DNA of 64,000 nt. It comes from Microbacterium terricola. Its GTDB lineage: Bacteria; Actinomycetota; Actinomycetes; Actinomycetales; Microbacteriaceae. Made by a program: the position numbers and the translations under genes. Below, in pieces: positions 8,901 to 27,256 of the stretch; the stretch's first letter is position 1; every line of letters starts with the position of its first letter. Where the stretch lies: contig NZ_AP027141.1 in the NCBI RefSeq assembly GCF_027943945.1, positions 558,001 to 622,000 on the forward strand. Direction: 5' to 3'. The notes beneath the pieces are model-generated. The model saw nothing but the letters and a program-made list of their open reading frames with translations, did no database searches and was not told the DNA's origin.

Positions 8901-8918
8901 AAACCGACCGTCCGGTAT
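8901..8918 (+). promoter_or_regulatory. TetR-type operator, copy a (AAACCGACCGTCCGGTAT)
   Basis: This 18-bp near-palindrome sits between a possible -10 (TACTGT at 8887-8892) and the Shine-Dalgarno site of the SDR gene. Its reverse complement differs from the site at 21038 by one base. ACCG-N6-CGGT half-sites are typical of TetR-family regulators of acyl-CoA metabolism. Repression of the 8941-12043 operon is inferred. Confidence 0.7.
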
Positions 8919-8940
8919 GTGCCAGCGCAAGGAGGCGCCC

Positions 8941-9714
8941 ATGCCCGTTCCCGATCCGTCCGCCGTGCCGTCCGGACCCGCGCGCTTCGCCGGCACCGTC
9001 TCGGTCATCACCGGGTCGAGCAGGGGCATCGGCTTCGCCATCGCCGAGCGCCTCGTGGCCGAGGGCGGCGCCGTCATCCTCACCGGTCGCAAGCAGGACG
9101 CACTGGATGCGGCGGTCGATCGCCTCGGGGATGCGGCGACCGCTGTCGCCGGTCGCGCCGACGACGCCGAGCACCGCGCCGCCGTCTTCGCTCACGTCGC
9201 CGAGCGGCACGGCCGGCTCGATCACCTGGTCAACAACACCGGGATCAACCCGGTGTACGGCCCGGTCGTCGACATCGACGCCGATGCCGCGCGGAAGATC
9301 CTCGAGGTGAACGTCGTCGCCACCCTGGACTGGACGCGCGCCGCGGTCGCCGCGGGTCTGCGCCGCTCGGTCGTCAACATCGCCTCGGTCGCCGGTCTCG
9401 GCGCCAGCCCCGGCATCGCGTTCTACGGAATCTCGAAGGCGGCGGTCATCAACCTGACGATGCAGCTCGCGTACGAGCTGGCCCCCGGCATCCGGGTCAA
9501 CGCGGTCGCCCCCGCGGTCATCAAGACGGCGTTCGCGCGCGCACTCTACGAAGGACACGAGGCCGAGGCCTCCGCCGCCTATCCGCTCGCGCGGCTCGGC
9601 GAGACGGCTGACGTCGCGGGGCCGGTGGCGTTCCTGCTCTCCGACGACGCCGCGTGGATCACCGGGCAGACCCTGCCGATCGACGGCGGCGCGGGCATCC
9701 GCCCGTTCCTCTGA
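8941..9714 (+). CDS. SDR family oxidoreductase
   Basis: This is a 257-residue short-chain dehydrogenase using NAD(P)H. It has the Rossmann glycine motif TGSSRGIG near residue 22, the structural motif as NNTG instead of the usual NNAG, a catalytic Ser in NIASVAG, and YxxxK as YGISK. The C-terminus ITGQTLPIDGG is typical of FabG-like enzymes. The start at 8941 is fixed by the Shine-Dalgarno AAGGAGG at 8929-8935, 5 nt upstream. It is the first gene of a run of four (SDR, TetR, quinone-oxidoreductase-like, SDR). By context it probably acts on 3-hydroxyacyl-CoA or a related alcohol. Confidence 0.8.
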   Translation: MPVPDPSAVPSGPARFAGTVSVITGSSRGIGFAIAERLVAEGGAVILTGRKQDALDAAVDRLGDAATAVAGRADDAEHRAAVFAHVAERHGRLDHLVNNTGINPVYGPVVDIDADAARKILEVNVVATLDWTRAAVAAGLRRSVVNIASVAGLGASPGIAFYGISKAAVINLTMQLAYELAPGIRVNAVAPAVIKTAFARALYEGHEAEASAAYPLARLGETADVAGPVAFLLSDDAAWITGQTLPIDGGAGIRPFL

Positions 9715-9733
9715 CCGGGTGAAAGATAAGAGC

Positions 9734-10324
9734 ATGAGGGATTCCCACGTCGCCGACGACGTCATGCGTGCCGCGGTCGACCTGTTCGCCACCCAGGGCT
9801 ACGCCAACACCAGCGTGCAGCAGATCGTCGCGGCGGCCGGTGTCACCAAGGGCGCGATGTACCACTACTTCGAGTCGAAGGACGATCTGCTCTTCGGCAT
9901 CTACGACTCGCTGCTGTCGCTGCAGAAGAACCGGCTCGACGAGATCGTGGGGCGCGGCGGCGAGGTAGATGAGGTGCTGCGAGCCGTCTGCATCGACGTG
10001 CTCGAGACGTCGATCGACTCGCTGCCGGAGGGCACGGTGTTCTTCCGGAGCGCGCACATGCTCTCGGCACCGCGCCAGCAGGAGGTCACCCGCCGCCGGC
10101 GGGAGTACCACGTCGAGTTCGCCGCGCTGATCGAGCGCGGCCAGCGCGAGGGGCGCTACCGCACCGACATCCCGGTCGCGATGCTCGTCGCGCACTTCTT
10201 CAGCGACGTGCACTACCTCTCGCACTGGTATTCGCCGGAGGGGCCGGAGAGCAAGTCGCTCGTCGCGAGCCAGCTGACCGAGCTGTTCCTGGTGAGTCTG
10301 AGGAGTCCGGATGCCGCTGCCTGA
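9734..10324 (+). CDS. TetR family transcriptional regulator
   Basis: This is a 196-residue regulator. The N-terminal helix-turn-helix is clear: VDLFATQGYANTSVQQIV then AGVTKGAMYHYFESKDDLL (about residues 12-52). The C-terminal ligand-binding domain ends VAHFFSDVHYLSHWYSPEG. The start at the ATG 9734 gives MRDSHVADDV; a GTG at 9719 only adds five residues. It lies 20 bp after the SDR stop codon, in the operon behind the operator at 8901. This makes it the prime candidate to bind the ATACCG-N6-CGGTWT sites and to sense an acyl-CoA, as PaaR/FadR-like TetRs do. The ligand is unknown. Confidence 0.82.
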   Translation: MRDSHVADDVMRAAVDLFATQGYANTSVQQIVAAAGVTKGAMYHYFESKDDLLFGIYDSLLSLQKNRLDEIVGRGGEVDEVLRAVCIDVLETSIDSLPEGTVFFRSAHMLSAPRQQEVTRRRREYHVEFAALIERGQREGRYRTDIPVAMLVAHFFSDVHYLSHWYSPEGPESKSLVASQLTELFLVSLRSPDAAA

Positions 10325-11312
10325 CACGATGCGCGCCTGGCGCGTGACCCGGCTCGGCGAGCCCGCCGATGCGCTCTCGCTCGACGACGTCCCGCTGCCC
10401 GCTCCCGCGGCGGGTGAGGTTCTCGTGGCGGTGCGCGCCGTCGCCGCGAACTTCCCCGACGTGCTGCTGTGCCGCGGCGAGTACCAGGTGAAGCCGGAGC
10501 TGCCCTTCACTCCCGGGATCGAGCTCGTCGGCGAGGTCGTCGCGCTCGGCGAGGGTGTCGCCGATCGGGCGATCGGCGACCGCGTCGTCGGCTCGAAGAT
10601 CGGCGTGCTGTCGGAGTACGCGGTGCTGCCCGCATCCGATGTCTGGACCGCGCCGGAGAGCCTCGGCGATGCCGAGGCCGCCGGGCTGACCGTGGCGTAC
10701 CAGACCGCATGGTTCGGCCTGCATCGCCGGGCGGCCCTGCAGGAGGGCGAATGGCTGCTCGTGCACGCCGCAGCCGGAGGTGTCGGGCTGGCGGCCGTGC
10801 ACCTCGGCGTCGCCGCGGGTGCCCGCGTGATCGGCGTCGTGGGCTCGGCGGCCAAGGCCGAGGTGGCCCGCGCCGCGGGCTGCGAGGTCGTGCTGGTGCG
10901 CGGCGCCGACGATCTCGTGGGCGGCGTCAAGGCCGCGACCGGCGGTCACGGCGCCGACGTGGTGTTCGATCCGGTGGGCGGGGCGGCGTTCGACGCCTCG
11001 ACCAAGTGCATCGCGTTCGAGGGGCGCATCGTGGTGGTCGGCTTCGCCGGCGGCACGATCCAGCAGCTGCCGGCCGGTCACGTGCTGGTCAAGAACTACT
11101 CGGTGCTCGGACTGCACTGGGGGATGTACCCGGGCATCCGGCCCGACCTGATCGACGTCGCGCGGGGTGAGCTCGCTCGGCTCGCCGATGCGGGCGCGCT
11201 CCAGCCGGTGGTCGACCATGTCGTCCCGTTCGAGCGCGCTCCTGAGGCGCTCACGGCTCTTGCCGGAGGCGCGACCGTGGGCCGGGTCGTCATCGTGCTC
11301 GCGGCGTCATGA
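10311..11312 (+). CDS. NADPH:quinone oxidoreductase-like MDR enzyme
   Basis: This is a 333-residue medium-chain dehydrogenase/reductase without zinc ligands. It has a GroES-like N-domain (PGIELVGEVVALGEGV) and a nucleotide-binding domain with VHAAAGGVGLAAVHLG near residue 150. The C-terminal region is GRIVVVGFAGGTIQQLP. The family reduces quinones, enones or enoyl-CoA using NADPH. It starts at the ATG 10311, 5 nt after AGGAG, and overlaps the end of the TetR gene by 14 nt, so translation is probably coupled. It overlaps the next SDR by 4 nt. Enoyl reduction within this operon is plausible but unproven. Confidence 0.78.
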   Translation: MPLPDTMRAWRVTRLGEPADALSLDDVPLPAPAAGEVLVAVRAVAANFPDVLLCRGEYQVKPELPFTPGIELVGEVVALGEGVADRAIGDRVVGSKIGVLSEYAVLPASDVWTAPESLGDAEAAGLTVAYQTAWFGLHRRAALQEGEWLLVHAAAGGVGLAAVHLGVAAGARVIGVVGSAAKAEVARAAGCEVVLVRGADDLVGGVKAATGGHGADVVFDPVGGAAFDASTKCIAFEGRIVVVGFAGGTIQQLPAGHVLVKNYSVLGLHWGMYPGIRPDLIDVARGELARLADAGALQPVVDHVVPFERAPEALTALAGGATVGRVVIVLAAS

Positions 11313-12043
11313 GCGATCTCGCCGGCCGGGTCTGCCTCGTCACCGGCGGGGCTCGCGGCATCGGCGAGGCGTACGTCCGCGCGCTGCACGCTGCGGGCGG
11401 GCGGGTGGTCGTGGCCGATCTGCTCGACGCCGAGGGCGCCGCGCTCGCCGACGAGCTCGGTGAGGGTGCGCGGTTCGTCCACCTCGACGTGACGGACGAG
11501 GAGCAGTGGGATGCCGCCGTCGCGGCGTCCCTGGCGGCGTTCGGGCGTCTGGACGTGCTGGTCAACAACGCGGGCATCGCCAACGCCGCGCCGATCGAGC
11601 ACCTCAGCACCGCCAAGTGGGACGCCGTGATCGCCGTCAACCTCACGGGCGTCTTCTTCGGGTGCCGGGCGGTCGTGCCGACCATGAAGGCGCAGGGGAG
11701 CGGCTCCATCATCAACATCTCGTCCGTGGAGGGGATGCGGGGGAGTCCCGGCCTGCACGGCTACACGGCGGCGAAGTTCGGCGTCCGCGGGCTCTCGCAG
11801 TCGCTCGCCGTCGAACTCGGGCCGTCCGGCATCCGCGTCAACTCGGTGCACCCCGGCTTCATCCGCACGCAGATGACCGATCGGATCGACCCCGCGCACC
11901 TCGACATCCCGCTCCGGCGAGCCGGAGTGCCCGCCGATGTCGCGGGCACCATCGTGTTCCTCGCCGGCGATGAGTCGGCGTTCACGAGCGGCGCCGAGTT
12001 CGTGGTCGACGGCGGCATGATCGCGGGGATTCCCCACAAGTAG
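11309..12043 (+). CDS. SDR family oxidoreductase (3-oxoacyl reductase-like)
   Basis: This is a 244-residue classical short-chain dehydrogenase. It has the glycine motif TGGARGIG near residue 12, NNAG near residue 87, the catalytic Ser in NISSVEG, YxxxK as YTAAK, and the C-terminal FTSGAEFVVDGGM. It resembles 3-alpha/20-beta-hydroxysteroid and hydroxyacyl dehydrogenases, and the natural substrate cannot be told. It overlaps the previous stop codon by ATGA and is the last gene of the operon. Hairpins follow at 12067 and 12089. Confidence 0.8.
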   Translation: MSDLAGRVCLVTGGARGIGEAYVRALHAAGGRVVVADLLDAEGAALADELGEGARFVHLDVTDEEQWDAAVAASLAAFGRLDVLVNNAGIANAAPIEHLSTAKWDAVIAVNLTGVFFGCRAVVPTMKAQGSGSIINISSVEGMRGSPGLHGYTAAKFGVRGLSQSLAVELGPSGIRVNSVHPGFIRTQMTDRIDPAHLDIPLRRAGVPADVAGTIVFLAGDESAFTSGAEFVVDGGMIAGIPHK

Positions 12044-12066
12044 CGGCGGCCGCCGCATCCGCTCGT

Positions 12067-12128
12067 CCCCCTTCGGGGGTTCTGCTCGCCTGTCGCGAAG
12101 TGCGCGTTCGCGCGCCGTTCGTGACAGG
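12067..12128 (+). terminator. Two hairpins after the SDR operon
   Basis: First comes a C-run/G-run stem with a TTCG loop at 12067-12079. Second is an 11-bp inverted repeat, CCTGTCGCGAA at 12089-12099 and TTCGTGACAGG at 12118-12128, with an 18-nt GC-rich spacer. The single mismatch in the second is a G-U pair in plus-strand RNA (12095 with 12122). No T-tract follows. They probably end or protect the upstream transcript. Confidence 0.55.
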
Positions 12129-12186
12129 TGAACGGGGGCCGGCTCGGGGCGGGCGAGGACGCCGAGGACACCCGTGCAACTGAAAC

Positions 12187-12216
12187 ATACCGCCTGGTCG
12201 GTTTCTTGGGTATAGT
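12187..12216 (+). promoter_or_regulatory. liv operon promoter with TetR-type operator, copy b
   Basis: Operator ATACCGCCTGGTCGGTTT occupies 12187-12204, over the expected -35 region. The -10 box TATAGT is at 12211-12216. The first liv ATG is at 12244. Binding here would block RNA polymerase, so repression is inferred. Confidence 0.7.
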
Positions 12217-12243
12217 GGGCGCACCCGACACGAAGAGGTGCCG

Positions 12244-12966
12244 ATGTCTCCCACTCCGTCCACTCCGCGGCTCGCCGTGGCCGATCTCACGGTGTCGTTC
12301 GGCGGCCTCACGGCGGTCGACGGTGTCGGCTTCGACGTCGCCTCCGGCGAGATCGTCGCGCTGATCGGCCCGAACGGGGCAGGCAAGACCACCGTGTTCA
12401 ACGCGGTGTGCGCCCTGGTCCGCCGGCGGGGATCCGTGCTGATCGACGGCGAACCCGCTCCCCACCGTCCCTCCGCGCTGACGGCACGCGGGGTGTCGCG
12501 CACACTCCAGGGACTCGGGCTGTTCGCCGGCATGACCGTCCGCGAGAACGTGCGGGTGCCCGTGGCGGGGCGTCGCGACGCGGGCGCACTCGTGCAGCGG
12601 CAGCTCGAGGAGCGCGGCCTCGCGGCGGTCGCCGACCTGCCGGTCGCCGCGCTCCCGTATCCCGACCGCAAGCGCGTCGCGCTCGCCCGTGCGCTCGTCA
12701 CCACGCCCCGCCTGCTGCTGCTGGACGAGCCGGCCGGCGGCCTCGGCGCTGACGACATCTCCGCCCTCGGCGACGTGATCCGCGCCGTCGCCGGCGCCGG
12801 CTGCGCGGTGCTGCTCGTCGAGCACCACGTCGACTTCGTGATGGGCCTGGCCGATCGCATCGTCGTGCTCGACTTCGGTCGCGTGATCGCCCGCGGCACG
12901 CCCGCCCAGGTGCGGACCGACCCGCGCGTCGAAGAGGCCTACCTCGGTGTGACGGTGTCGGCATGA
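12244..12966 (+). CDS. Liv-type ABC transporter ATP-binding protein (LivG-like)
   Basis: This is a 240-residue ATPase of a branched-chain amino-acid-type (HAAT) importer. Walker A is GPNGAGKTT, Walker B is LLLLDEPAGGL, and the H-loop is in LLVEHHVDF. The ABC signature is unusual: where LSYGQ or LSGGQ is expected it reads LPYPDRKRVALARAL. Either this site is catalytically atypical or the subunit pairs asymmetrically with the LivF-like partner. The ATG at 12244 follows AGAGG by 6 nt. It is the first gene of a five-gene operon (G, F, H, M, J order) with 1-4 nt overlaps. Given the neighbours, the cargo may be a carboxylate rather than an amino acid. Confidence 0.85.
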   Translation: MSPTPSTPRLAVADLTVSFGGLTAVDGVGFDVASGEIVALIGPNGAGKTTVFNAVCALVRRRGSVLIDGEPAPHRPSALTARGVSRTLQGLGLFAGMTVRENVRVPVAGRRDAGALVQRQLEERGLAAVADLPVAALPYPDRKRVALARALVTTPRLLLLDEPAGGLGADDISALGDVIRAVAGAGCAVLLVEHHVDFVMGLADRIVVLDFGRVIARGTPAQVRTDPRVEEAYLGVTVSA

Positions 12967-13733
12967 GCGGCCGGACCGCGACCGGCGCGCCCACCGCCAC
13001 GGGCGTGCCCACCGCCACCGGCGCCGCCCTCCAGATCGAGGGGCTCACGGTCGGCTACGGCGGGGCTCCGGTGCTGCACGGGGTCTCCATCGACCTGCAC
13101 CCGGGCGAGGTGGTCGCCCTCCTCGGCGCGAACGGCGCAGGCAAGACCACCCTGCTGCGTGCGCTCGCCGGGCTGGTGCATGTCGCATCCGGCACCGTGC
13201 GGCTCGACGGCACCGACCTCACCCGCACCCGCACCGAAGACCGCGCACGCCGCGGGCTCGCCCTCGTCCCGGACGGGCAGAGCGTCGTCGCCGAGCTCAC
13301 CGTCGACGAGAACCTGCGCCTCGGCGCCCTCTGGCGGCACCGCGGCCGGGCCCGCGAACAGGCCATCGCGGGCGTCTACGAGCTGTTCGAGCCGCTCGCG
13401 CGCCGCCGCGCGGCCGCGGGCCACCAGCTCTCGGGCGGCGAGCGGCAGATGCTCGCCCTCGGCCGTGCGCTCATCGCCGAGCCGACGCTCCTCGCCCTCG
13501 ACGAGCCGTCGCTCGGGCTCGCTCCGCTCGTCGTGGCCCAGCTGATGGCGACGCTCCGCGACGCGGCCGCGCGCCGCGGGCTCACCGTGCTGCTCGCCGA
13601 GCAGAACGTCACCAGCGCGCTGTCGATCGCCGATCGCGGGGTGGTCCTGGACCTCGGCCGTGTCGTCGCGGCGGCCGCAGCATCCGATCTCGCGGCCGAC
13701 GCCGCCCTCCGCCACGCCTACCTGGGATTCTGA
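12963..13733 (+). CDS. Liv-type ABC transporter ATP-binding protein (LivF-like)
   Basis: This is a 256-residue ATPase. About 22 residues of Thr/Gly/Ala repeats (ATGAPTATGVPTATG) precede the domain. Walker A is GANGAGKTT, the signature LSGGERQMLALGRAL is canonical, and Walker B is LLALDEPSLGLAP. It contains LVPDGQSVVAELTVDENL, which is typical of LivF. It overlaps the LivG-like gene by 4 nt (ATGA). It probably forms the ATPase pair with the LivG-like subunit on the cytoplasmic face. Confidence 0.88.
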   Translation: MSGRTATGAPTATGVPTATGAALQIEGLTVGYGGAPVLHGVSIDLHPGEVVALLGANGAGKTTLLRALAGLVHVASGTVRLDGTDLTRTRTEDRARRGLALVPDGQSVVAELTVDENLRLGALWRHRGRAREQAIAGVYELFEPLARRRAAAGHQLSGGERQMLALGRALIAEPTLLALDEPSLGLAPLVVAQLMATLRDAAARRGLTVLLAEQNVTSALSIADRGVVLDLGRVVAAAAASDLAADAALRHAYLGF

Positions 13734-14611
13734 TGGACCGCCTCGCCTTCCTCCTCGCCACCGGCCTCGCCCGCGGCGCGATCTTCGCCCTGTTCGCGCT
13801 GTCGCTCGTGCTGATCTGGCGCGCCGCCCGCATCATCAACTTCGCGCAGGGGGCCATGGCGCTCGTCGCGACCTACATCGCCTTCGCCGTGACGGGATTC
13901 ACCGGCTCGTACGCGGCCGGGCTCGCGACCGGAATCGTCGCAGGCGCGGTGGTCGGCTTCGCCGTCGAGCGCGGGGTGATGCGCTTCGCGCGGCACGAGA
14001 ACCCGCTCGCCGGCGTGATCGTCGCGATCGGGCTCGTGATGGTGCTGCAGTCGCTGCTCGGCATCCTGTTCGGCCAGGCGTACCGCCCGATGCGCGCGCC
14101 GTTCGACGAGAGCCCCCTCGTCGTCGCCGGCGTGCCGCTGCTCTCGCCGTACGACCTGTTCGTGCTGGTCGTCGCGCTCGCCGTGATGGCGGGGCTGGCG
14201 GTGCTGTTCACGCGGACCTCGCTCGGGCTGCAGCTGCGGGCATCCGCGTTCGCCCCCGAGGTCTCGCGGATCCTCGGCGTGCGCGTGACCCGCATGGTGA
14301 CGATCGGATGGATGCTGTCCGCCGCCGTCGCCGCACTCGCTGCGCTGCTGCTCGTGCCGACGGAGCTCGGCCTGAACCCGCACTCGACCGATGTGCTCTT
14401 CGTCTACGCGTTCGCCGTCGCCGTCGTGGGCGGACTCGACTCGCCCGTCGGTGCGCTGCTCGGCGGTCTCGTGGTCGGCGTCGTGATGACCCTCGTGACC
14501 GGGTACCTCGGCGCCACGGTCGCCCCCATCGGCGTGCTGGTGCTGCTCGTCGCGGTGCTCCTCGTGCGGCCCACCGGCATCTTCGCGATACGAGAGGCGC
14601 GCAGCGCATGA
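13733..14611 (+). CDS. Liv-type ABC transporter permease (LivH-like)
   Basis: This is a 292-residue integral membrane protein with about eight membrane helices. The N-terminus carries the LivH hallmark RIINFAQGAMALVATYIAF. The cytoplasmic coupling region is LGLQLRASAFAPEVSRILGV, and the end is VRPTGIF. It overlaps the previous stop by 1 nt. Together with the LivM-like protein it forms the membrane channel. Confidence 0.88.
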   Translation: MDRLAFLLATGLARGAIFALFALSLVLIWRAARIINFAQGAMALVATYIAFAVTGFTGSYAAGLATGIVAGAVVGFAVERGVMRFARHENPLAGVIVAIGLVMVLQSLLGILFGQAYRPMRAPFDESPLVVAGVPLLSPYDLFVLVVALAVMAGLAVLFTRTSLGLQLRASAFAPEVSRILGVRVTRMVTIGWMLSAAVAALAALLLVPTELGLNPHSTDVLFVYAFAVAVVGGLDSPVGALLGGLVVGVVMTLVTGYLGATVAPIGVLVLLVAVLLVRPTGIFAIREARSA

Positions 14612-15693
14612 CCCGGATCCTGCCCTCGCTGACCGGTGCGCCGCGCACCGTCACTTTCGGCGCCGTGCTGACGGTGCTCGCCCTCGGCGGGACGTTCCTG
14701 CTCGACCCGTACCGCAACTTCCAGCTCGCCACGATCGCGGCGACCTTCTGCGCGGCCGCCGGACTGACCCTGCTGATCGGCCTGAGCGGACAGCTCTCGC
14801 TGGGCCATGCCGCCCTGATGGCCGCCGGAGGCTACGGCTACGCCCTCGCGGCGAACGGGCTCGCCGGGTGGGGCGTCGACGGGGTGGCGCGGTTCGCGCT
14901 GGCTCTGCTCGCTGCGCTGCTCGTCTCCGGTCTGCTCGGACTGCTGCTCGGGCTCGCGGCGGCGCGCCTGCGCGGCCCGTACCTGGCGGGGCTGACCTTG
15001 GCCCTCGTGGTCGCGCTGCCCGCTGTGACGGCGGCGTTCGCGGGTGTGCTCGGCGGAGATCAGGGCCTGCAGGTCGCCTACGAAGGCGTGCCCGAGGCCC
15101 TCGAACTGCTCATCGCGATCGAGCAGTGGCAGGCGTGGGTGGCGATCCTCGTCGCCGGGGTCGTCGTCACGACGCTGGCGGTGCTGCGACGCGGCCGGCT
15201 CGGGCTGCGCATGCGGGCGGTGCGGGACGATGACACGGCCGCGCGCCTGAACGGCGTGCGCGCGGGACGCGTGAAGGTCACCGCGTTCACGGTGTCTGCG
15301 CTGTCCGCGGGGGCCGGTGGCGCGGTGCTCTGCGCCGTCACCCAGTCGGTCAGCCCCGGTGCGTACACCCTCGCCTTCTCGCTCCTGCTCGTGGTGGCGG
15401 TCGTCATCGGCGGGCTCGGCAGCATCGGGGGCGCCGCGATCGGCTCCGCGGTCATCGTGCTGCTGCCCTGGCTGATCGGCACGCTCGCGGCGGAGCTGCC
15501 CGTGCCCGCCGAGGTCGCCCAGCGCCTGTCCGGCAACCTCTCCGTGCTCGTGTTCGGCGCGCTCCTCATCGTGGTGATGCTCGCCTGGCCGTCGGGTCTC
15601 GCCGGGGTGCGCAGGCGCGCGCCCGCCGTCGCGGCGAGGCCGCAGCATCCGATTCCGTCCGTCCAGCAATCCACAACAGAAACAGAGAGGTGA
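14608..15693 (+). CDS. Liv-type ABC transporter permease (LivM-like)
   Basis: This is a 361-residue membrane protein with the LivM hallmark LTLLIGLSGQLSLGHAALMAAGGY near residue 50. The coupling-helix motif is MRAVRDDDTAARLNGV, followed by GGLGSIGGAAIGSAV. The start at 14608 overlaps the LivH-like stop by 4 nt. A much longer in-frame extension upstream is an artefact of the open frame inside livH. The tail after the last helix is Arg/Ala-rich. Confidence 0.88.
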   Translation: MTRILPSLTGAPRTVTFGAVLTVLALGGTFLLDPYRNFQLATIAATFCAAAGLTLLIGLSGQLSLGHAALMAAGGYGYALAANGLAGWGVDGVARFALALLAALLVSGLLGLLLGLAAARLRGPYLAGLTLALVVALPAVTAAFAGVLGGDQGLQVAYEGVPEALELLIAIEQWQAWVAILVAGVVVTTLAVLRRGRLGLRMRAVRDDDTAARLNGVRAGRVKVTAFTVSALSAGAGGAVLCAVTQSVSPGAYTLAFSLLLVVAVVIGGLGSIGGAAIGSAVIVLLPWLIGTLAAELPVPAEVAQRLSGNLSVLVFGALLIVVMLAWPSGLAGVRRRAPAVAARPQHPIPSVQQSTTETER

Positions 15694-15695
15694 CC

Positions 15696-18718: not shown

Positions 18719-18753
18719 CGGTGTCTCCTTCGACATCGGGCGGGGCGTTCGGG

Positions 18754-19956: not shown

Positions 19957-20993
19957 CAGTGCACCTGCAGTCCCTTCTGGGCGAGCGGCTCGACGAGAGC
20001 GCCCATCCGGTCGAATCCCTCGCCGACGGTGTCGCCGGCCTGGAAGCGGAAGTGGATCCCCTCGAGGATCACCGCGAGCTTGTACGCCGCGAAGGCGCGG
20101 TACCAGCGCAGGTCGGGCACGGCGATGCGCGCGTGCTCGGCGTACGCGTCGACGAGCTCCGCGAAGCGCGGATAGCCCGCGGCGGGATCGACCGCGCTCG
20201 GCACGGCCCCCGCGAATCCGCCCGGCAGCTCGGCGATGTCCCAGTAGAGCGCGAAGATCCCCAGGTCGACGAGGGGGTCGCCGAGCGTCGCCATCTCCCA
20301 GTCGAGGATCGCCGAGATGTGCGGCTCATCGGCGTCGCCGACGACGAGGGCGTTGTCGAGCCGATAGTCGCCGTGCACGATGCCGGTGCGCGCGGTGTCG
20401 GGGGTGCCCGCGGAGAGGGAGGCCTGCAGCGCGTCGAGGGCGGGCGTCTCGCGCGAACGCGACGCGTCGAGCTGGCGGCGCCAGGTCGACAGCTGCCGGG
20501 TGAGGTACCCGTCCGGCCGCCCGAAGTCGCTCAGGCCGACCGCATCGGGGTCGACCGCGTGGAGCTCGGCCAGATGCCGCACGAGCTCGAACCCGAGAGC
20601 GCGCAGGCCCGCGGGCGTGTACGCGGCGTTCTGGGCCGGCCGGGCGAGCACCCGACCGGGGGCGCGCTCCATCAGGAAGAAGGTCGTGCCGGTGATCGCC
20701 GAGTCGGCGGTGTCATCGACCACGTCGACGGCGGCGGGCACGGGCACGGCACTGCCGGCGAGGGCGGAGATCACCCGATGCTCGCGCCGCATGTCATGTG
20801 CGCTCGAGAGCACGTGGCCGAGCGGAGGGCGGCGCAGGATCAGCGGCAGGCGCGCGCCTTCGACGGCGTAGGTGAGGTTGCTGCGCCCTCCGGCGATCAC
20901 GGTCGCGGACAGTGGTCCCGCGGCGAGATCGGGATGCGTCGCCTCCAGCCACCGTTGCAGGCCCGCGACATCCAGTCCCGGCACATCCGCCAT
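19956..20993 (-). CDS. APH-like phosphotransferase (LvaA/ACAD10-11 kinase-domain type)
   Basis: This is a 345-residue protein of the aminoglycoside-phosphotransferase/choline-kinase fold. The N-lobe has GGRSNLTYAV and LILRRPP (ATP Lys equivalent position). The catalytic loop is IVHGDYRLDNALV and the metal-binding motif is ILDWEMATLGDPLVDLG. This subfamily sits next to ACAD10/11-type dehydrogenases. In Pseudomonas LvaA and in mammalian ACAD10/11 the kinase phosphorylates the 4-hydroxyl of 4-hydroxyacyl-CoA. That role, not antibiotic resistance, is the best reading here. It is the first gene of the operon, and its promoter overlaps operator copy c. Confidence 0.83.
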   Translation of the reverse strand: MADVPGLDVAGLQRWLEATHPDLAAGPLSATVIAGGRSNLTYAVEGARLPLILRRPPLGHVLSSAHDMRREHRVISALAGSAVPVPAAVDVVDDTADSAITGTTFFLMERAPGRVLARPAQNAAYTPAGLRALGFELVRHLAELHAVDPDAVGLSDFGRPDGYLTRQLSTWRRQLDASRSRETPALDALQASLSAGTPDTARTGIVHGDYRLDNALVVGDADEPHISAILDWEMATLGDPLVDLGIFALYWDIAELPGGFAGAVPSAVDPAAGYPRFAELVDAYAEHARIAVPDLRWYRAFAAYKLAVILEGIHFRFQAGDTVGEGFDRMGALVEPLAQKGLQVH

Positions 20994-21034: not shown

Positions 21035-21055
21035 AGCATACCGGATGGTCGGTTT
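21035..21055 (-). promoter_or_regulatory. Kinase operon promoter with TetR-type operator, copy c
   Basis: Operator ATACCGGATGGTCGGTTT (plus-strand reading) lies at 21038-21055. On the minus strand its CGGTAT end runs into the -10 box TATGCT (complement of 21035-21040). The ATG is at 20993. The operator differs by one base from the reverse complement of copy a. Confidence 0.7.
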
Positions 21056-21165: not shown

Positions 21166-21576
21166 TCAGAGCAGATCGGACTCGATCGCGGAGCGGATGC
21201 CGTCCGGCACGGGCGTCGGGCGGCGGGTCACCGCATCCACGAACACATGCACGAACCGGCCCGTCGCGATCGGCTCAGGCTCGCCGGCGCGCAGGATGCC
21301 GAGGCTCCACGTGACGCTGGTGCTCCCGAGCCGCGCCACGCCGATGCCCACCTCGAGCGCCTCGGGGAAGCCGGCTGACGCCGCGAACTCGCATGATGAC
21401 GCCGCGCACAGCGCGATCGCCGGGCTTGAGAGCGGATCGAGGCCGCCCGTGCGGATCATCCAGGCGTTCACCGCGGTGTCCATGGCCGCGTAGTACACCG
21501 TGTTGTTGAGGTGGCCGTACTGGTCGTTGTCGTTCCACCGCGTCGCGAACGGCTCCCGCACCCGATACGCCGTCAT
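21166..21576 (-). CDS. Acyl-CoA thioesterase (4-hydroxybenzoyl-CoA thioesterase/YbgC-like)
   Basis: This is a 136-residue hot-dog-fold protein. The N-terminal signature TRWNDNDQYGHLNNTVYY carries the catalytic Asp of the 4HBT family. FVHVFVDAVTRRPTPVP near the end is also typical. It would hydrolyse acyl-CoA to free acid and CoA, which could relieve CoA sequestration during catabolism. The start at 21576 (MTAYRVREP) overlaps the TetR stop codon by 1 nt, so it is translated with that regulator. Confidence 0.82.
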   Translation of the reverse strand: MTAYRVREPFATRWNDNDQYGHLNNTVYYAAMDTAVNAWMIRTGGLDPLSSPAIALCAASSCEFAASAGFPEALEVGIGVARLGSTSVTWSLGILRAGEPEPIATGRFVHVFVDAVTRRPTPVPDGIRSAIESDLL

Positions 21577-22223
21577 CAGCCGTCCACGCGCAGCAGGAGC
21601 CGGAACGCGACGCGGGCGCGCTCGGCGCTGGGCGTGTCGCCGGAGATCAGGTCGGCGTAGGTGAACGACTCCGACATCCGCACGAGCAGGTACGCGAGCC
21701 CCGGCGGATCGATCGCCCCGCCGAGGGGCGTAGCGCCCAGCTCGCGGCGCACGAGCCAGTCCGCGGTCGCGACGTAGCGCCGCTGGATCGGGCTCTCCTT
21801 GGTCGTGAGCAGTCGCAGCGCGCGCGCCGGCTCGCGGCGCAGGAACTGTCGGAAGTAGTCGGCGGTGATGAGGTCGTCGACGAAGTGGGTGAGGATGCCG
21901 GCGACCCGCGCGCCGCCCGAGCCGTCGGCCGTCGCGTGCTCGGCCTGCACCAGCGTGGGCACGGCGAGCGACCAGAGCACCTCGCTCAGCAGCGCGTCGC
22001 GGTTGCCGACCCAGCGGAAGAGCGACGTGCGGTCGACTCCGAGCGTGCCGGCCAGGCTCCCCATGTCGATGCGCCTGCCCGCGATGAAGGCCTCGCGGGC
22101 GAGGTCGAAGGCGCGCGCGGCGTCGGGGTGCGCGCCGTCGGCGAGTCGCTCGGACAGCCATGAGGGGGCAGTCGTCAGGCCGACGGTCGCGATCGACTGC
22201 GGCGGGGCCGCGGTGGTGGTCAT
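21576..22223 (-). CDS. TetR family transcriptional regulator
   Basis: This is a 215-residue regulator. The helix-turn-helix is at about residues 40-80 (AREAFIAGRRIDMGSLAGTLGVDRTSLFRWVGNRDALL). The ligand-binding domain has ADYFRQFLRREPARALRLL and a helical end VRMSESFTYADLISGD. It is divergent from the acyl-CoA dehydrogenase at 22327. The shared gap holds a perfect 20-bp palindrome that is its likely operator. That palindrome is different from the ACCG-type sites, so this regulator probably governs a separate sub-regulon. Confidence 0.8.
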   Translation of the reverse strand: MTTTAAPPQSIATVGLTTAPSWLSERLADGAHPDAARAFDLAREAFIAGRRIDMGSLAGTLGVDRTSLFRWVGNRDALLSEVLWSLAVPTLVQAEHATADGSGGARVAGILTHFVDDLITADYFRQFLRREPARALRLLTTKESPIQRRYVATADWLVRRELGATPLGGAIDPPGLAYLLVRMSESFTYADLISGDTPSAERARVAFRLLLRVDG

Positions 22224-22255: not shown

Positions 22256-22289
22256 TGCAACATTCTGCAGAATGTTGTGCAACGTTCTG
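22256..22289 (+). promoter_or_regulatory. Double operator for the divergent TetR / acyl-CoA dehydrogenase pair
   Basis: Perfect palindrome CAACATTCTGCAGAATGTTG is at 22258-22277. The 12-mer TGCAACATTCTG (22256-22267) recurs as TGCAACGTTCTG at 22278-22289, exactly 22 bp or two helical turns away. It lies 34 bp from the TetR start and 38 bp from the dehydrogenase start. Confidence 0.72.
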
Positions 22290-22326: not shown

Positions 22327-23595
22327 ATGACGTTCACCCTCAGTGCCCCCGACCGGGTCGAGACCGCGCCGGCCGAGCTGCTCGACGCGGACTTCTACGC
22401 GTTCCAGCACCAACTCACCGCGACCGAGCAGCGTGCGCTCGCCGGCATCCGGCGCTTCCTCGATACAGAGGTGCGGCCGTTCGCCGACGACCACTGGGAA
22501 CGCGCGGAGAGTCCCAGGCACCTCTTCCCCCGCTTCGCAGAGCTCGGGCTGTTCGGCAATGCGTTCCCGGAGACCGCGCTGTTCGAGAACAGCAGCGTCT
22601 TCCGCGGGTGGGTGGCGATGGAGATCTCGCGTGCGGACCCGTCGACCGCGACCTTCATCGGCGTGCACTCCGGACTCGCGATGACCTCGATCGCCGTGGG
22701 CGGGTCGCCCGCGCAGAAGGCGGAGTGGATGCCGCGGCTCGCTGCCGGCGAGCTGGTCGCCGCGTTCGGGCTCACCGAACCAGGCCACGGCTCCGACACC
22801 GCGCGCGGACTCGAGACGACGGCGGAGCGCCGCATCCGCCAAGACGGCACGGACGAATGGGTGCTCAACGGGTCGAAGCGCTGGATCGGCAACGGCGCCT
22901 TCGCCGACCTCGTGGTGATCTGGGCGCGCGACGTCGCCGATGACCAGGTCAAGGGCTTCCTCGTGCGTACGCCGACGCCCGGGTTCGTCGGCACGAAGAT
23001 CGAGCGCAAGCAGTCACTGCGGGCCGTCGAGAACGCCGACATCGTGCTGCAGGACGTCGTGGTGCCCGAGAGCGACCGGCTGCCGAAGATCCACGGCTTC
23101 CGCGATGTCGCGGTCGTGCTCCGCCTGACCAGGGCGGACGTCGCCTGGCAGGCGCTCGGCGTTGGGGTCGGCGCGTATGAGGCCGCGCTCGCGTACGCGA
23201 AAGCGCGGGTGCAGTTCGGCAAGCCGATCGCGTCGTTCCAGCTCGTGCAGCAGAAGCTCGCCGACGCGCTGGCCGGCATCACGGCCTCGATCGCCCTGTG
23301 CATGCGCGTCTCGCAGATGCAGGACGAGGGCACGCAGCGCGACCATCACTCCGCGATGGCGAAGGCGTTCGTGAGCGCCCGCATGCGCGAGACCGTGGCG
23401 CTGTGCCGCGAGATCTGCGGAGGCAACGGCATCCAGCTCGGCAGCGAAGCGCAGTACGACGGGCAGATCGTGCCCGGCTACAGCGTGGCCCGCTACTTCG
23501 CGGACGCCGAGGCGGTGTTCACGTTCGAGGGCACCTTCGACATGAACTCGCTGATCGTCGGCCGCGCGATCACCGGCATCGCGGCGTTCGTCTGA
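22327..23595 (+). CDS. Acyl-CoA dehydrogenase (glutaryl-CoA dehydrogenase-like)
   Basis: This is a 422-residue FAD enzyme. It has the middle-domain motif FGLTEPGHGSDTARG and SKRWIGNGAFADLVV, then QFGKPIASFQLVQ and ICGGNGIQLGSE. The catalytic-base motif is TFEGTFDMNSLIVGRAI near the end. It is related to the dehydrogenase at 7552 but clearly diverged. The start at 22327 follows GAAGGAGAG; the frame extends upstream to 22294, inside the operator, which is unlikely. The thiolase follows after 35 bp in the same operon. This suggests that its enoyl-CoA product is later cleaved thiolytically. Confidence 0.86.
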   Translation: MTFTLSAPDRVETAPAELLDADFYAFQHQLTATEQRALAGIRRFLDTEVRPFADDHWERAESPRHLFPRFAELGLFGNAFPETALFENSSVFRGWVAMEISRADPSTATFIGVHSGLAMTSIAVGGSPAQKAEWMPRLAAGELVAAFGLTEPGHGSDTARGLETTAERRIRQDGTDEWVLNGSKRWIGNGAFADLVVIWARDVADDQVKGFLVRTPTPGFVGTKIERKQSLRAVENADIVLQDVVVPESDRLPKIHGFRDVAVVLRLTRADVAWQALGVGVGAYEAALAYAKARVQFGKPIASFQLVQQKLADALAGITASIALCMRVSQMQDEGTQRDHHSAMAKAFVSARMRETVALCREICGGNGIQLGSEAQYDGQIVPGYSVARYFADAEAVFTFEGTFDMNSLIVGRAITGIAAFV

Positions 23596-23630
23596 GCGCC
23601 AGCATCCCCTCGATACGACGGAGGACCACC

Positions 23631-24854
23631 ATGACCGAGGCGTACATCGTCGCCACCGCCCGCTCGCCGATCGGACGCGCCCGCAAGGGGACGCTCGCGG
23701 GGATCCGCCCCGACGACCTCGCGGCCCAGATGGTGCAGGCCGCCCTCGATCGGGTGCCGGGGCTCGACCCGGCGCGCATCGACGATCTGCTGATGGGATG
23801 CGGTCAGCCCGCCGGCGAGCAGGGCATGAACATCGCTCGGATCGTCGCGGTGCTGCTGGGCCTCGACGGTGTGCCGGGTACGACCGTCAACCGGTACTGC
23901 TCGTCCTCGCTCCAGACCACGCGGATGGCGTTCCACGCGATCAAGGCGGGCGAGGGCGACATCTTCGTGTCGGCGGGCGTCGAGTCGGTGTCGCGGTACA
24001 CGCAGGGCTCGGCGGACGTCATGCCGGGCATCTCGAACGAGAACCCCCGTTTCGCCGGGGCGATCGCCCGCACGGCGCGGCGCGCGGAGCAGGGGGCGGC
24101 CGGATGGGCCGACCCCCGCGAGGACGGAGCGCTCCCCGACCCCTACATCGCGATGGGGCAGACGGCCGAGAACGTCGCGGCTGTCCGCGGCGTGACGCGC
24201 GAGCAGCAGGACGCGTTCGCCGCCCGCTCGCAGCAGCGTGCCGAAGCGGCCATCGCGTCCGGATTCTGGGCGCGCGACATCACACCCGTGACGCTCGGCG
24301 ACGGCACGGTGGTCTCGGCCGACGACGGCCCGCGGCCGGGCGTGACGGTGGAGGCGCTGGCCGGGCTCGACCCGGTCTTCCGGCCAGACGGCACGGTCAC
24401 GGCCGGCAACTGCTGCCCGCTGAACGACGGCGCCGCCGCGCTGGTGATCGTGTCGGGCGCCGTCGTGGACGAGCTCGGGCTCAGCCCGCTCGCGCGCATC
24501 GTGTCGACCGCGGTCAGCGGGTTGTCGCCCGAGACGATGGGTCTCGGGCCGGTCGCCGCGTCGCGCGACGCGCTGCACCGCGCAGGGCTCGGCATCGACG
24601 ACATCGACCTGGTCGAGATCAACGAGGCGTTCGCGGCGCAGGTCATCCCCTCGGCACGCGACCTCGGCATCGACGACGACCGACTCAACGTGCACGGCGG
24701 GGCGATCGCCGTCGGGCATCCGTTCGGCATGACCGGCGCGCGCATCACCTCGACCCTCATCAACGGCCTGGATGCGGCCGGGGGCCGCTACGGCCTGGAG
24801 ACGATGTGCGTGGGGGGCGGCCAGGGGATGGCCATGGTGCTGGAGCGGGTCTGA
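23631..24854 (+). CDS. Acetyl-CoA C-acyltransferase (thiolase)
   Basis: This is a 407-residue degradative thiolase that cleaves 3-oxoacyl-CoA with CoA. The nucleophilic Cys is in TVNRYCSSSLQT near residue 90. The active-site His is in VGHPFGMTGARI and the second Cys in MCVGGGQGMAMVLE. The N-terminus EAYIVATARSPIGRARKGTL is typical of the family. The ATG at 23631 follows GGAGGA. It is convergent with the MaoC gene, 12 bp away. Confidence 0.9.
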   Translation: MTEAYIVATARSPIGRARKGTLAGIRPDDLAAQMVQAALDRVPGLDPARIDDLLMGCGQPAGEQGMNIARIVAVLLGLDGVPGTTVNRYCSSSLQTTRMAFHAIKAGEGDIFVSAGVESVSRYTQGSADVMPGISNENPRFAGAIARTARRAEQGAAGWADPREDGALPDPYIAMGQTAENVAAVRGVTREQQDAFAARSQQRAEAAIASGFWARDITPVTLGDGTVVSADDGPRPGVTVEALAGLDPVFRPDGTVTAGNCCPLNDGAAALVIVSGAVVDELGLSPLARIVSTAVSGLSPETMGLGPVAASRDALHRAGLGIDDIDLVEINEAFAAQVIPSARDLGIDDDRLNVHGGAIAVGHPFGMTGARITSTLINGLDAAGGRYGLETMCVGGGQGMAMVLERV

Positions 24855-24866
24855 CCCACCTGCGGA

Positions 24867-25322
24867 TCAGGCGGGGAAGAACAGGGCCAGGGTCTCCGCG
24901 ACGAGCGCGGGTCGCGAGGCGCCCTCGAGCTCGACCGTGGTGGTCATCCCGACCCGGTACCCCTGCGCGGTCTCCTCGACCGACGCGATCTCGGTGTGCG
25001 CCCGCACGCGCGAGCCGGCGGGCACGGGCTGGAGGAACCGGACCTTGTCGAGGCCGTAGTTGACCACCATCGCGGTGCCGTCGACCTCGAGCAGCCCCGC
25101 CGTCAGGTGCGGCAGCAGCGACAGGGTGAGGTACCCGTGCGCGATGGTCGCGCCGAACGGACCGGCAGCGGCCCGTTCGGCGTCGACGTGGATCCACTGG
25201 CGGTCCTCGGTGGTCTCGGCGAACGCCGTGATGCGCTCCTGCCCGACCTCGAGCCAGTCGCCGGTCGCAGACTGTCCGATCGCATCGGCGAGGGCGGCAG
25301 GAGAGGCGATCACGATGCTCAT
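24867..25322 (-). CDS. MaoC family enoyl-CoA hydratase
   Basis: This is a 151-residue hot-dog-fold hydratase. The hydratase-2 region is FAETTEDRQWIHVD (catalytic Asp/His), followed by GATIAHGYLTLSLLP. The C-terminal half has VNYGLDKVRFLQPVPAGSRVR. It hydrates trans-2-enoyl-CoA to (R)-3-hydroxyacyl-CoA. Its ATG overlaps the stop of the upstream SDR by 4 nt; it is the last gene of the ADH-SDR-MaoC operon. Confidence 0.85.
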   Translation of the reverse strand: MSIVIASPAALADAIGQSATGDWLEVGQERITAFAETTEDRQWIHVDAERAAAGPFGATIAHGYLTLSLLPHLTAGLLEVDGTAMVVNYGLDKVRFLQPVPAGSRVRAHTEIASVEETAQGYRVGMTTTVELEGASRPALVAETLALFFPA

Positions 25323-26068
25323 GCGCGGGGTCCTCCGGCCACGTAGAGCACCTGTCCGGAGACGAAGCCGGCCTCCTCCGAGCAGAAGAACGACGCGGCG
25401 GCGGCGATGTCGTCCGGCTGACCGGCACGAGCGACCGGGATCTCCTTCGCGGCGTGGGCGACGAAGTCGTCGAACCCGACACCGATGCGCTCTGCCGTCG
25501 CCCGGGTCATGTCGGTGACGATGAAACCAGGGGCGATCGCGTTTGCGGTGACGCCGTACCGGCCCAGCTCGATCGCGAGCGTCTTCGTCAGGCCCTGCAT
25601 GCCGGCCTTGGCGGCGGAGTAGTTCGCCTGCCCGCGATTGCCGAGGGCCGAGGTGCTGGAGAGGTTGACGATCCGCCCCCAGCCCGCGGCGACTTGATGC
25701 GCCTGCACCGCGCGGCTCATCAGGAATGCGCCGCGCAGATGCACGTTCATCACGGCATCCCAGTCGTCCTCGGTCATCTTGAACAGCAGGTTGTCGCGGA
25801 GGATGCCGGCGTTGTTGACGAGGATCGTCGGGGCGCCGAGCTCGTCCACGACGCGCTGGACGGCGGCCTCGACGGCCGACGCGTCGGAGACGTCGGCACC
25901 GACGGCGATCGCGGTGCCGCCCGCATCGGCGATCGCGGCGACGGTGTCGGCGCAGTGCGCGGCGTCGAGGTCGAGCACGGCGACGGCGTGGCCGTCGGCC
26001 GCGAGCCTGCGGGCGGTCGCGGCGCCGATGCCGCGGCCCGCTCCGGTGACGATGGCGGTCCTGGTCAT
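25319..26068 (-). CDS. FabG-like 3-oxoacyl reductase / hydroxyacyl-CoA dehydrogenase (SDR)
   Basis: This is a 249-residue SDR. It has the glycine motif TGAGRGIG near residue 8, the NNAG motif in LVNNAGILRDNLLFKMTEDD, a catalytic Ser in NLSSTSALG, and YxxxK as YSAAK. The C-terminus is FVSGQVLYVAGG. ILRDNLLFKM is typical of FabG-type enzymes. Beside a MaoC (R)-hydratase it probably oxidises (R)-3-hydroxyacyl-CoA to the 3-oxo form for the thiolase. The start at 26068 is supported by GAGAGG 6 nt upstream; the frame extends further but into the gap and next gene. Confidence 0.85.
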   Translation of the reverse strand: MTRTAIVTGAGRGIGAATARRLAADGHAVAVLDLDAAHCADTVAAIADAGGTAIAVGADVSDASAVEAAVQRVVDELGAPTILVNNAGILRDNLLFKMTEDDWDAVMNVHLRGAFLMSRAVQAHQVAAGWGRIVNLSSTSALGNRGQANYSAAKAGMQGLTKTLAIELGRYGVTANAIAPGFIVTDMTRATAERIGVGFDDFVAHAAKEIPVARAGQPDDIAAAASFFCSEEAGFVSGQVLYVAGGPRA

Positions 26069-26085
26069 GGGGTTCCTCTCGGTGG

Positions 26086-27192
26086 TCAGAAGGTGATGAG
26101 CTGGCGCAGCTCGCCGCCGGCGGCGAGACGGTCCATCGCGGCGTCGATGTCGTCGAGCCGGATGCGCGATGACACCAGGCGCTCCAGCGGCAGCCGGCCC
26201 GCGCGCCACAGGTCGACGTAGCGGGGGATGTCGCGGCTGGGCACGGCGGAGCCCAGATAGCTGCCGACGATCGTGCGCGCCTCGGCGGTGAGGGTGAGCG
26301 GTGACACCGCCGCGCGGGCGTCGGGCGCGGGCAGCCCGACCGTGACCGTGGTGCCCCCCGGCGCGGTCAGTGCGAGCGCGGTCTCGAAGGCGCGGGCGGC
26401 ACCCGCCGCCTCGATCACCAGGGGAGCGCGGATGCTGCGCTCCACCGCCTCCGCGGGGCTCAGCGCCTCCGCGGCGCCGAGGCTGCGGGCGAGGTCGAGC
26501 TTGGCGTCGAGCGCGTCGACGCCCACGACCTCGTGCCCGAGCGCTGCGGCGACGAGCAGCGCCGCCATGCCGACGCCGCCGAGTCCGACGACGACGACCG
26601 GATCACCGGGTGCGGGGCGTCCGGCGTTGATGACGGCACCGCCGCCGGTCAGCACCGCGCAGCCGAGGAGCGCGGCGATCTCCGCGGGCACATCCGCCGG
26701 CACCGGGACCACCGAGGTGCGGCTCACCACGGCGTGGGTGGCGAACGCGCTCACGCCCAGATGGTGGTGCACGTCCTGCCCGGCTTCGCCGCGGTGCAGG
26801 CGGATTCCGCCGCCGACGAGCGTGCCGGCGCCGTTGGCCGCGCTCCCGGGTACGCAGGGCAGCCGGCCGTCGGTGCGGCACCCGTCGCACGTGCCGCACC
26901 GCGGCAGGAAGGTCATCACGACGCGGGTGCCCACGTCGAGGTCGGCGACGTCGGGCCCGACCGCTTCCACGATCCCGGCCGCCTCATGCCCGAGCAGCAT
27001 CGGGGTGGGTCGCTCGCGGTTGCCGTCGACGACGCTGAGGTCGGAATGGCAGACGCCGGCAGACTCGATCCGGACCAGCACTTCGCCGGCGCCCGGCGGG
27101 TCGAGATCGAGCGGACCGACCGTGAACGGACGCGACTGCGCGTAGGGCGCGCTGGCGCCCGTGCGCTCGAGCACGGCTCCGATGATGCGCAT
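26086..27192 (-). CDS. Zinc-dependent alcohol dehydrogenase (class III-like MDR)
   Basis: This is a 368-residue medium-chain dehydrogenase with both zinc sites. Catalytic ligands are Cys in SAGVCHSDLSV and His/Glu in GHEAAGIVE. Structural-zinc cysteines are in PRCGTCDGCRTDGRLPC. The nucleotide-binding motif is VVGLGGVGMAALLVA. It oxidises an alcohol with NAD. MRIIGAVLERTG at 27192 follows AAGGAGG. It is the first gene of the operon with the SDR and MaoC genes and is divergent from the serine hydrolase through a shared promoter. The substrate may be an acyclic alcohol feeding the acyl-CoA pathway. Confidence 0.85.
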   Translation of the reverse strand: MRIIGAVLERTGASAPYAQSRPFTVGPLDLDPPGAGEVLVRIESAGVCHSDLSVVDGNRERPTPMLLGHEAAGIVEAVGPDVADLDVGTRVVMTFLPRCGTCDGCRTDGRLPCVPGSAANGAGTLVGGGIRLHRGEAGQDVHHHLGVSAFATHAVVSRTSVVPVPADVPAEIAALLGCAVLTGGGAVINAGRPAPGDPVVVVGLGGVGMAALLVAAALGHEVVGVDALDAKLDLARSLGAAEALSPAEAVERSIRAPLVIEAAGAARAFETALALTAPGGTTVTVGLPAPDARAAVSPLTLTAEARTIVGSYLGSAVPSRDIPRYVDLWRAGRLPLERLVSSRIRLDDIDAAMDRLAAGGELRQLITF

Positions 27193-27232
27193 CCGGCCTC
27201 CTTCGTCGGGCGTCGTCGCACCGGCAGTGACC

Positions 27233-27256
27233 AGCATACCGACTGTGCGGTATGCT
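27233..27256 (+). promoter_or_regulatory. Bidirectional promoter with TetR-type operator, copy d
   Basis: Perfect 9-bp arms AGCATACCG (27233-27241) and CGGTATGCT (27248-27256) surround a 6-bp core. Each arm contains a -10 box TATGCT on its own strand. One bound dimer at 27236-27253 could shut both the alcohol dehydrogenase (minus) and serine hydrolase (plus) promoters. Confidence 0.75.

Follow-up and report, generated by a model that had tools for sequence, protein, structure and literature searches.

A 64,000-nucleotide stretch of the Microbacterium terricola genome (assembly GCF_027943945.1, contig NZ_AP027141.1, positions 558,001 to 622,000; referred to here as the window) contains a cluster of catabolic genes in which four copies of an 18-bp inverted repeat, designated operators a to d, precede four groups of genes. 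These groups are an operon for a short-chain dehydrogenase (SDR1) and a TetR-type regulator (TetR1), a Liv-type importer operon, an operon for an APH-type kinase, an acyl-CoA dehydrogenase (ACAD) and a ligase, and a divergent pair encoding a zinc alcohol dehydrogenase (ADH) and a serine hydrolase (Table 1). Two further TetR proteins, TetR2 and TetR3, are encoded in the same region, and TetR2, inside the cluster, was absent from the account given in an earlier note on this sequence. That note had proposed one TetR operator common to four promoters of a single catabolic regulon, with the TetR encoded from position 9734 (TetR1) as the favoured regulator and that encoded from 28474 (TetR3) as the second choice. 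The analysis reported here provided strong comparative support for a common operator and a single regulon, and the conservation patterns indicated that the four sites are very probably operators of one TetR encoded within the cluster, namely, TetR1.

All four sites fitted the consensus ATACCG-N6-CGGTWT with 0 mismatches, reading on the minus strand at 8901-8918, on the plus strand at 12187-12204 and 21038-21055, and on both strands at 27236-27253. In a common orientation, the sequences were AAACCGACCGTCCGGTATGTG for operator a (plus strand), AAACCGACCAGGCGGTATGTT for b (minus strand), AAACCGACCATCCGGTATGCT for c (minus strand) and ATACCGACTGTGCGGTATGCT for d; the reported single-base difference between a, as its reverse complement, and c was borne out. 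Within the window, 16 strand-counted matches with up to 2 mismatches were detected, compared to a mean of 2.2 and a maximum of 7 in 100 shuffles. A scan of the 3,251,508-base genome, which had been suggested as a check, located exact matches only at the four sites, together with 7 further places having 1 mismatch and none for the reversed control. The bare ACCG-N6-CGGT core was rejected as a diagnostic, being found 295 times genome-wide (reversed control, 48), and hence the specificity sits in the longer form, the 18-mer WACCGACYRNNCGGTATG, which served as the strict motif. Four off-cluster places in the genome had 1 to 2 mismatches to this longer motif: one inside a pyridoxal phosphate (PLP)-decarboxylase-like open reading frame (ORF), one inside a Gfo/Idh-like ORF, one ∼90 bp upstream of rpsD and one between MFS- and TetR-like divergent genes. 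These ORF names represent our own reading of the translations, without database assignment, and no likely regulon member was apparent among the four when the translations were read. The last of these near matches, GTACCGTCCAGCCGGTAT at G000:C1:1677438-1677455 (about 1539-1556 of locus L143), lies between apparently divergent genes for an MFS transporter and a TetR and is possibly the operator of that neighbouring TetR. It is one of the 7 one-mismatch places and the only one of these whose context was read.

The identity of the regulator was examined in 120 genomes of the same family. TetR1 has the domains PF00440 (TetR_N; E 5.9e-18) and PF17932 (TetR_C_24; E 1.9e-21). Its best solved-structure match was the TetR/AcrR-family protein of PDB 3dcf (E 6.6e-24), for which the listing gave no function. 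We take this entry to be Tfu_2799 of Thermobifida fusca. Orthologs with 58 to 77% identity were present in 6 relatives, giving 7 of the 120 genomes when the genome under study is included (E 1.3e-70 or better), and the next-best genome had a match of only 29% identity (E 4.5e-25). The strict motif, searched for independently, was also found in 7 of 120 genomes (reversed control, 0/120), and its 4 matches in the M. terricola genome were operators a to d. The two sets of genomes were the same, with the motif present in 7/7 genomes having an ortholog of at least 58% identity and in 0/113 of those without one (Fisher p 1.7e-11, with relatedness ignored). The helix-turn-helix stretch was nearly invariant among the 7 orthologs. 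This perfect correspondence upheld the preference for the 9734 protein, and, as judged by genome content, TetR1 is the sole one of the three TetRs to fit the distribution of the motif.

Placement of the sites was compared across relatives. All four recurred upstream of orthologous genes in three genomes (G079, G102 and G025), with 3 mismatches in the SDR1 site of G102 and G025. Three others (G076, G114 and G080) retained TetR1 with fewer or rearranged sites, and G080 had a further site just upstream of the APH kinase gene. A scan of named genomes yielded at least 80 loci, each encoding a TetR1 relative. These loci had been selected for TetR1, and the 120-genome search is therefore the unbiased test. 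A site with up to 2 mismatches was present in 70 of the 80 named TetR1-family loci listed, and the reversed motif was present in none (0/80). For a finer count, 31 closer loci (7 from the family genomes and 24 named; L050 and L064 were left out beside G102 and G114, and two M. yannicii strains were both kept) were scored for sites with up to 2 mismatches within 200 bp upstream of each gene. Sites preceded the genes heading the putative units, namely, SDR1 (24/29), LivF (21/22), APH (9/12), ADH (5/5) and the serine hydrolase (6/7), and none preceded MDR, SDR2, LivG, LivH, LivM, LivK, the ligase, the thioesterase, ACAD2, the thiolase or MaoC. Exceptions were sites upstream of TetR1 (2/31), ACAD1 (1/20), TetR2 (1/8) and SDR3 (1/7). 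APH lacked a site in G076, L060 and L061, where it trails codirectional genes of the cluster, as expected if the sites mark unit heads. In 54 more distant named loci (TetR1 identity of about 45 to 52%), a site was detected in 45, within 350 bp upstream of APH in 28 and of TetR1 in 14, and ACAD1 and APH were present in 38 and 37, respectively. Loci of TetR paralogs within the family had no site at 2 mismatches (0/23), compared to 4/7 for size-matched ortholog loci. The arrangement described in the earlier note, with sites before the SDR/TetR operon, the Liv importer, the kinase-ACAD-ligase operon and the ADH/serine-hydrolase pair, therefore recurs in related loci.

Promoter-like hexamers were tallied in loci having a site with at most 3 mismatches. 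The −10 hexamer TATGCT, said to follow directly on CGGTAT at operators c and d, was correctly described and is conserved in related loci. A TANNNT hexamer overlapped the half of the operator nearer the gene in 9/9 APH promoters (7 of them TATGCT), 7/7 serine-hydrolase promoters and 4/6 ADH promoters. For livF, TANNNT started 7 bases past the scanned 18-mer in 18/22 loci, against a per-position background of 0.005; in operator b this element is TATAGT at 12211-12216. For SDR1, it started 8 to 17 bases upstream of the operator in 27/29 loci (1.6 expected), and TACTGT lies just upstream of operator a at 8887-8892. The operator thus covers or abuts a −10-like element in a register that is fixed for each promoter class, an arrangement that suits repression by occlusion, the mode by which these promoters would be controlled. 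A generic sigma-70 consensus scan detected no promoter at the four sites and 1 hit elsewhere (0.4 expected), so that the −10 assignment rests on conservation. No convincing −35 element was seen at operator c.

The kinase-ACAD-ligase operon provided an indication of the function of the regulon. ACAD1 matched ACAD11 with an E value of 1e-138, compared to about 1e-40 for ordinary ACADs, and the residues of the ACAD10/11 (LvaC) type were present: the HCMR motif with the upstream Arg as RLGPGRIHHCMR and the catalytic Asp in ADGPDEVHLS, as aligned with ACAD11 (8v3u). These residues have been tied to the 4-phospho group and to catalysis (PMC12440821). The APH kinase matched the kinase domain of ACAD11 (E about 1e-40) and had the catalytic Asp and Asn of the ACAD10/11 (LvaA) type (D220 and N225 in ACAD11), its HGDYRLDN aligning with HGDFKLDN. 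The same diagnostic residues occur in mammalian ACAD10 and ACAD11, in which the two domains form one protein rather than the products of two adjacent genes (PMC12440821, PMC11342911). These specific residues in both proteins point to phosphorylation of a 4-hydroxyacyl-CoA followed by elimination of phosphate, and degradation of such a compound by this route is the most likely function of the regulon. The presence of a kinase, ACAD1, a ligase, an importer, a dehydratase, dehydrogenases and a thiolase suggests a pathway in which the acid is imported, activated with CoA, phosphorylated at the 4 position and, once the phosphate has been eliminated, degraded by beta-oxidation. Candidate substrates would be levulinate, 4-hydroxyvalerate, a longer 4-hydroxy acid or a gamma-lactone whose ring the serine hydrolase opens.

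Several observations weighed against assignment of the four sites to TetR1 as the repressor of a single regulon. No site was found at 2 mismatches in 10 of the 80 listed TetR1-family loci, some of which are short contigs, and 5/29 SDR1 promoters reached a site only at 3 mismatches. At that threshold, 1/23 TetR paralog loci also scored, compared to 7/7 size-matched ortholog loci. The M. terricola genome has 19 matches to TetR1 at an E value of ≤0.001, and cross-binding by another TetR is therefore possible. TetR2 was also associated with the motif, more weakly (p 8e-4), as expected if TetR2 sits in the same cluster. Beyond the family, the strict motif was present in 31/246 genomes of the class (reversed control, 1/246). 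Inspection of 30 of the 31 loci, one per genome, with 20 nearby ORFs scanned, indicated that cluster genes lay beside the motif in 11: 5 loci of the family, 3 that encode a TetR1 relative (45 to 48% identity) and 3 with a kinase-ACAD pair. At 3 loci from another family (L151, L152 and L153) the motif adjoined a TetR only 35 to 37% identical to TetR1, and for 16 loci the flanks of about 1.5 kb contained no match to the kinase, ACAD1 or a TetR1-like protein; neighbours at some of these 16 included an AMP ligase, SDRs, MaoC, a flavin monooxygenase, transport genes and others. The occurrence of the motif beside other TetRs and genes outside the family indicates that the operator type is probably shared by related TetRs and suggests that a wider TetR group may use the same operator; hence, the motif in a distant genome is no proof of a TetR1 regulon. 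Binding by TetR1, repression and the inducer are predictions from sequence.

Regulation of the four operators by either of the other TetRs encoded here was considered extremely unlikely. TetR2 lies at the centre of the cluster and occurs in 4 of the 7 genomes with the motif; its matches at an E value of ≤1e-20 were spread over 10 of the 120 genomes, of which 4 had the motif and 6 did not, and three motif genomes (G076, G080 and G114) had no such match. Furthermore, TetR2 has a palindrome of its own, TGCAACATTCTGCAGAATGTTG, in its divergent region, and this box is kept in G079, G025 and G102. A pattern built from these three genomes and that of M. terricola and searched with 1 mismatch was found in 5/120 genomes, all among the 10 that are TetR2 positive, and in the fifth (G087) the box again lay just upstream of TetR2. 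TetR2 has a TetR_C_36 domain (E 2.1e-39), with no TetR_N match at E 0.01 in Pfam and no NCBIfam family. It would bind its own box rather than operators a to d and control the TetR2/ACAD2 region. TetR3 is encoded next to the serine hydrolase that operator d precedes, and in one named locus (L053) a relative with 74% identity adjoins TetR1; that locus has no site at 2 mismatches and one at 3 mismatches upstream of SDR1. Among the 120 genomes, 8 had a TetR3 match at an E value of ≤1e-30, and of these only M. terricola has the motif. The best ortholog (73% identity, from G106 of the same genus) comes from a genome without the motif, none of the six other motif genomes had a match at this threshold, and no motif was found within 200 bp upstream of TetR3 in 2/2 loci. 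The 28474 protein, the earlier second choice, is thus disfavoured, and there is hardly any likelihood that it governs these sites.

Sharing of the four sites, or of the TetR1 regulon, with TetRs of the same operator type encoded elsewhere in the cell would be consistent with the finding of this operator type in other families next to further TetRs and genes and with the near match GTACCGTCCAGCCGGTAT at the MFS/TetR gene pair. No further exact site is present in the genome, and of the 4 off-cluster near matches two are in coding sequence and one is ∼90 bp upstream of rpsD on our reading; we consider such sharing unlikely, while allowing it an appreciable chance. The cluster could alternatively represent a general fatty-acid regulon, given the presence of an ordinary ACAD, a thiolase, a MaoC-like dehydratase and dehydrogenases. 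Against this stand the matches of the kinase and the adjacent dehydrogenase to ACAD11, which for the dehydrogenase far exceed those to ordinary ACADs, and the retention of the phosphate-handling residues. In addition, ACAD1 and APH are the cluster genes most often found beside TetR1 in the 54 distant loci, with sites occurring upstream of APH more often than of any other gene. A general fatty-acid role therefore appears improbable.

Taken together, these analyses make it highly probable that TetR1 acts as the repressor at operators a to d of a 4-hydroxy-acid regulon, with a separate TetR2 circuit inside the cluster. The common operator, the identity of the regulator, the placement at unit heads and the type of kinase and ACAD are the parts supported by comparison; binding, repression, the inducer and the exact substrate are those that we infer. 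TetR1 would occupy, as a dimer, the ∼18-bp inverted repeat WACCGACY-N3-CGGTATG and in this way block RNA polymerase at each of four control regions, which serve the SDR1-TetR1-MDR-SDR2 operon that encodes it, the Liv-type importer, the kinase-ACAD-ligase operon and the divergent ADH(-SDR3-MaoC)/serine-hydrolase pair. The genes under its control are predicted to import and activate a 4-hydroxy or 4-keto acid, forming a 4-hydroxyacyl-CoA. The APH-type kinase would then phosphorylate the 4-OH group and the ACAD10/11-type dehydrogenase would eliminate phosphate, giving a 2-enoyl-CoA that enters beta-oxidation. TetR1, by analogy with MbdR, may be released by a CoA-thioester intermediate, and TetR2, acting via its different palindrome, may control the divergent TetR2/ACAD2 unit. 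We also put forward, tentatively and as less likely than not, the broader notion that TetR1 could be the founder of a group, widespread in actinobacteria, of sensors dedicated to 4-hydroxy- or 4-phosphoacyl-CoA, acting as ligand-controlled repressors of the ACAD10/11 pathway, beside an independently wired TetR2 that controls an ordinary beta-oxidation step.

Regulation of this kind is already known. MbdR of Azoarcus sp. CIB is a TetR repressor of the CoA-thioester cluster for anaerobic 3-methylbenzoate degradation; its 18-bp operator, ATACN10GTAT, overlies the −10, the −35 or the start site at several promoters of this one cluster, the regulator's own promoter among them, and the first CoA intermediate of the pathway releases MbdR (PMC4424350). 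The operators are close, ATACN10GTAT being exact at d, while in a, b and c an ATAC end faces a GTTT end, and the MbdR structure (4uds) matches TetR1 (E 1.1e-11). In contrast, no 3-methylbenzoyl-CoA pathway gene set was detected when the cluster proteins were scanned with Pfam and NCBIfam. PaaR, a TetR-type repressor of the phenylacetate genes of Burkholderia cenocepacia, is associated with the inverted repeat ACCGACCGGTCGGT between the −10 and −35 of catabolic operons (PMC2770484). The four sites differ from this repeat at 2, 2, 3 and 3 positions and are close to it as well. The cluster proteins scanned included no recognisable paa gene product, and the sites did not qualify as operators of a PaaR ortholog. 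Judging from these parallels, several CoA-thioester pathways may have reused one common type of TetR operator. The lva operon of Pseudomonas putida combines CoA ligation, a kinase and an ACAD and processes a 4-hydroxyacyl-CoA via a 4-phospho intermediate (PMC10164729, PMC11342911, PMC12440821), under the control of LvaR, an activator with a sigma54 interaction domain (PMC10164729). The present cluster differs in its predicted TetR repressor, its Liv-type importer and its several operons, and no LvaR-like sigma54-interaction activator was found among the Pfam-scanned ORFs between 4.0 and 35.2 kb, a subset of the ORFs there, which included three TetRs and one IclR. In the literature searched, mostly at the level of titles and abstracts and with few subscription papers, no report was found of a TetR controlling an ACAD10/11 pathway or of the longer operator, and it is this pairing of repressor and pathway that was not encountered. 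The analysis thus provides a candidate regulator and operator for an actinobacterial ACAD10/11-type 4-hydroxy-acid pathway, the known bacterial case (lva) using a quite different activator, and a specific prediction of four control regions under one repressor. If the inducer is confirmed, the system could serve as a small-molecule sensor for 4-hydroxy- or 4-oxo-acids.

Table 1. Operators and genes of the cluster (window coordinates; assignments from Pfam and NCBIfam scans and ORF lists)
Feature	Position	Strand	Remarks
Operator a	8901..8918	+	AAACCGACCGTCCGGTAT; ends 22 bp upstream of the SDR1 start codon
SDR1, short-chain dehydrogenase	8941..9714	+	first gene of regulator operon; Pfam adh_short_C2
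TetR1, predicted repressor	9734..10324	+	TetR_N and TetR_C_24
MDR-type oxidoreductase (zinc-binding dehydrogenase family)	10311..11312	+	Pfam
SDR2	11309..12043	+	Pfam
Operator b	12187..12204	-	AAACCGACCAGGCGGTAT on minus strand; upstream of livF
LivFGHMK-type ABC importer operon	12244..16979	+	2 ATPases, 2 permeases, binding protein; Pfam
Acyl-CoA ligase (AMP-binding)	17138..18757	-	Pfam; start codon uncertain
ACAD1, ACAD10/11-type acyl-CoA dehydrogenase	18754..19956	-	RLGPGRIHHCMR and catalytic Asp present
APH-type kinase	19956..20993	-	related to ACAD11 kinase domain
Operator c	21038..21055	-	AAACCGACCATCCGGTAT on minus strand, continuing into TATGCT; upstream of kinase-ACAD-ligase operon
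4HBT-type thioesterase	21166..21576	-	Pfam
TetR2, third TetR-like regulator	21576..22223	-	TetR_C_36
TetR2 box	22256..22277	unstranded	palindrome TGCAACATTCTGCAGAATGTTG in TetR2/ACAD2 divergent region
ACAD2, ordinary acyl-CoA dehydrogenase	22327..23595	+	probably under TetR2
Acetyl-CoA C-acyltransferase (thiolase)	23631..24854	+	NCBIfam, Pfam
MaoC-like dehydratase	24867..25322	-	Pfam MaoC_dehydratas, E 8.6e-23
SDR3	25319..26068	-	Pfam
ADH, zinc alcohol dehydrogenase	26086..27192	-	Pfam
Operator d	27236..27253	both strands	palindrome, CGGTATGCT outward on each strand; between divergent ADH and serine hydrolase genes
Serine hydrolase, beta-lactamase/esterase family	27308..28465	+	PF00144
TetR3	28474..29160	-	disfavoured as regulator of operators a to d

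Minor features were observed at the livF promoter and in one related genome. An Rfam search had no match between 8000 and 30000. The livF leader GACACGAAGAGGTGCCG (12226-12246) was identical in 18/22 loci from several families, a level of conservation that exceeds what a ribosome-binding site needs. With its flank, this leader forms an imperfect inverted repeat, CGRCAC-N6-GTGYCG, that is unique in the genome at 0 to 1 mismatches. A TGCAAC element (12175-12180), which resembles half of the TetR2 box, lies 5 to 6 bp before the livF operator and was present within 16 bp of this operator in 9/22 loci. In the G076 region (L037:3345-4363), the APH kinase gene was matched as two pieces in different frames, and this gene may be frameshifted, either in the genome or in its assembly.

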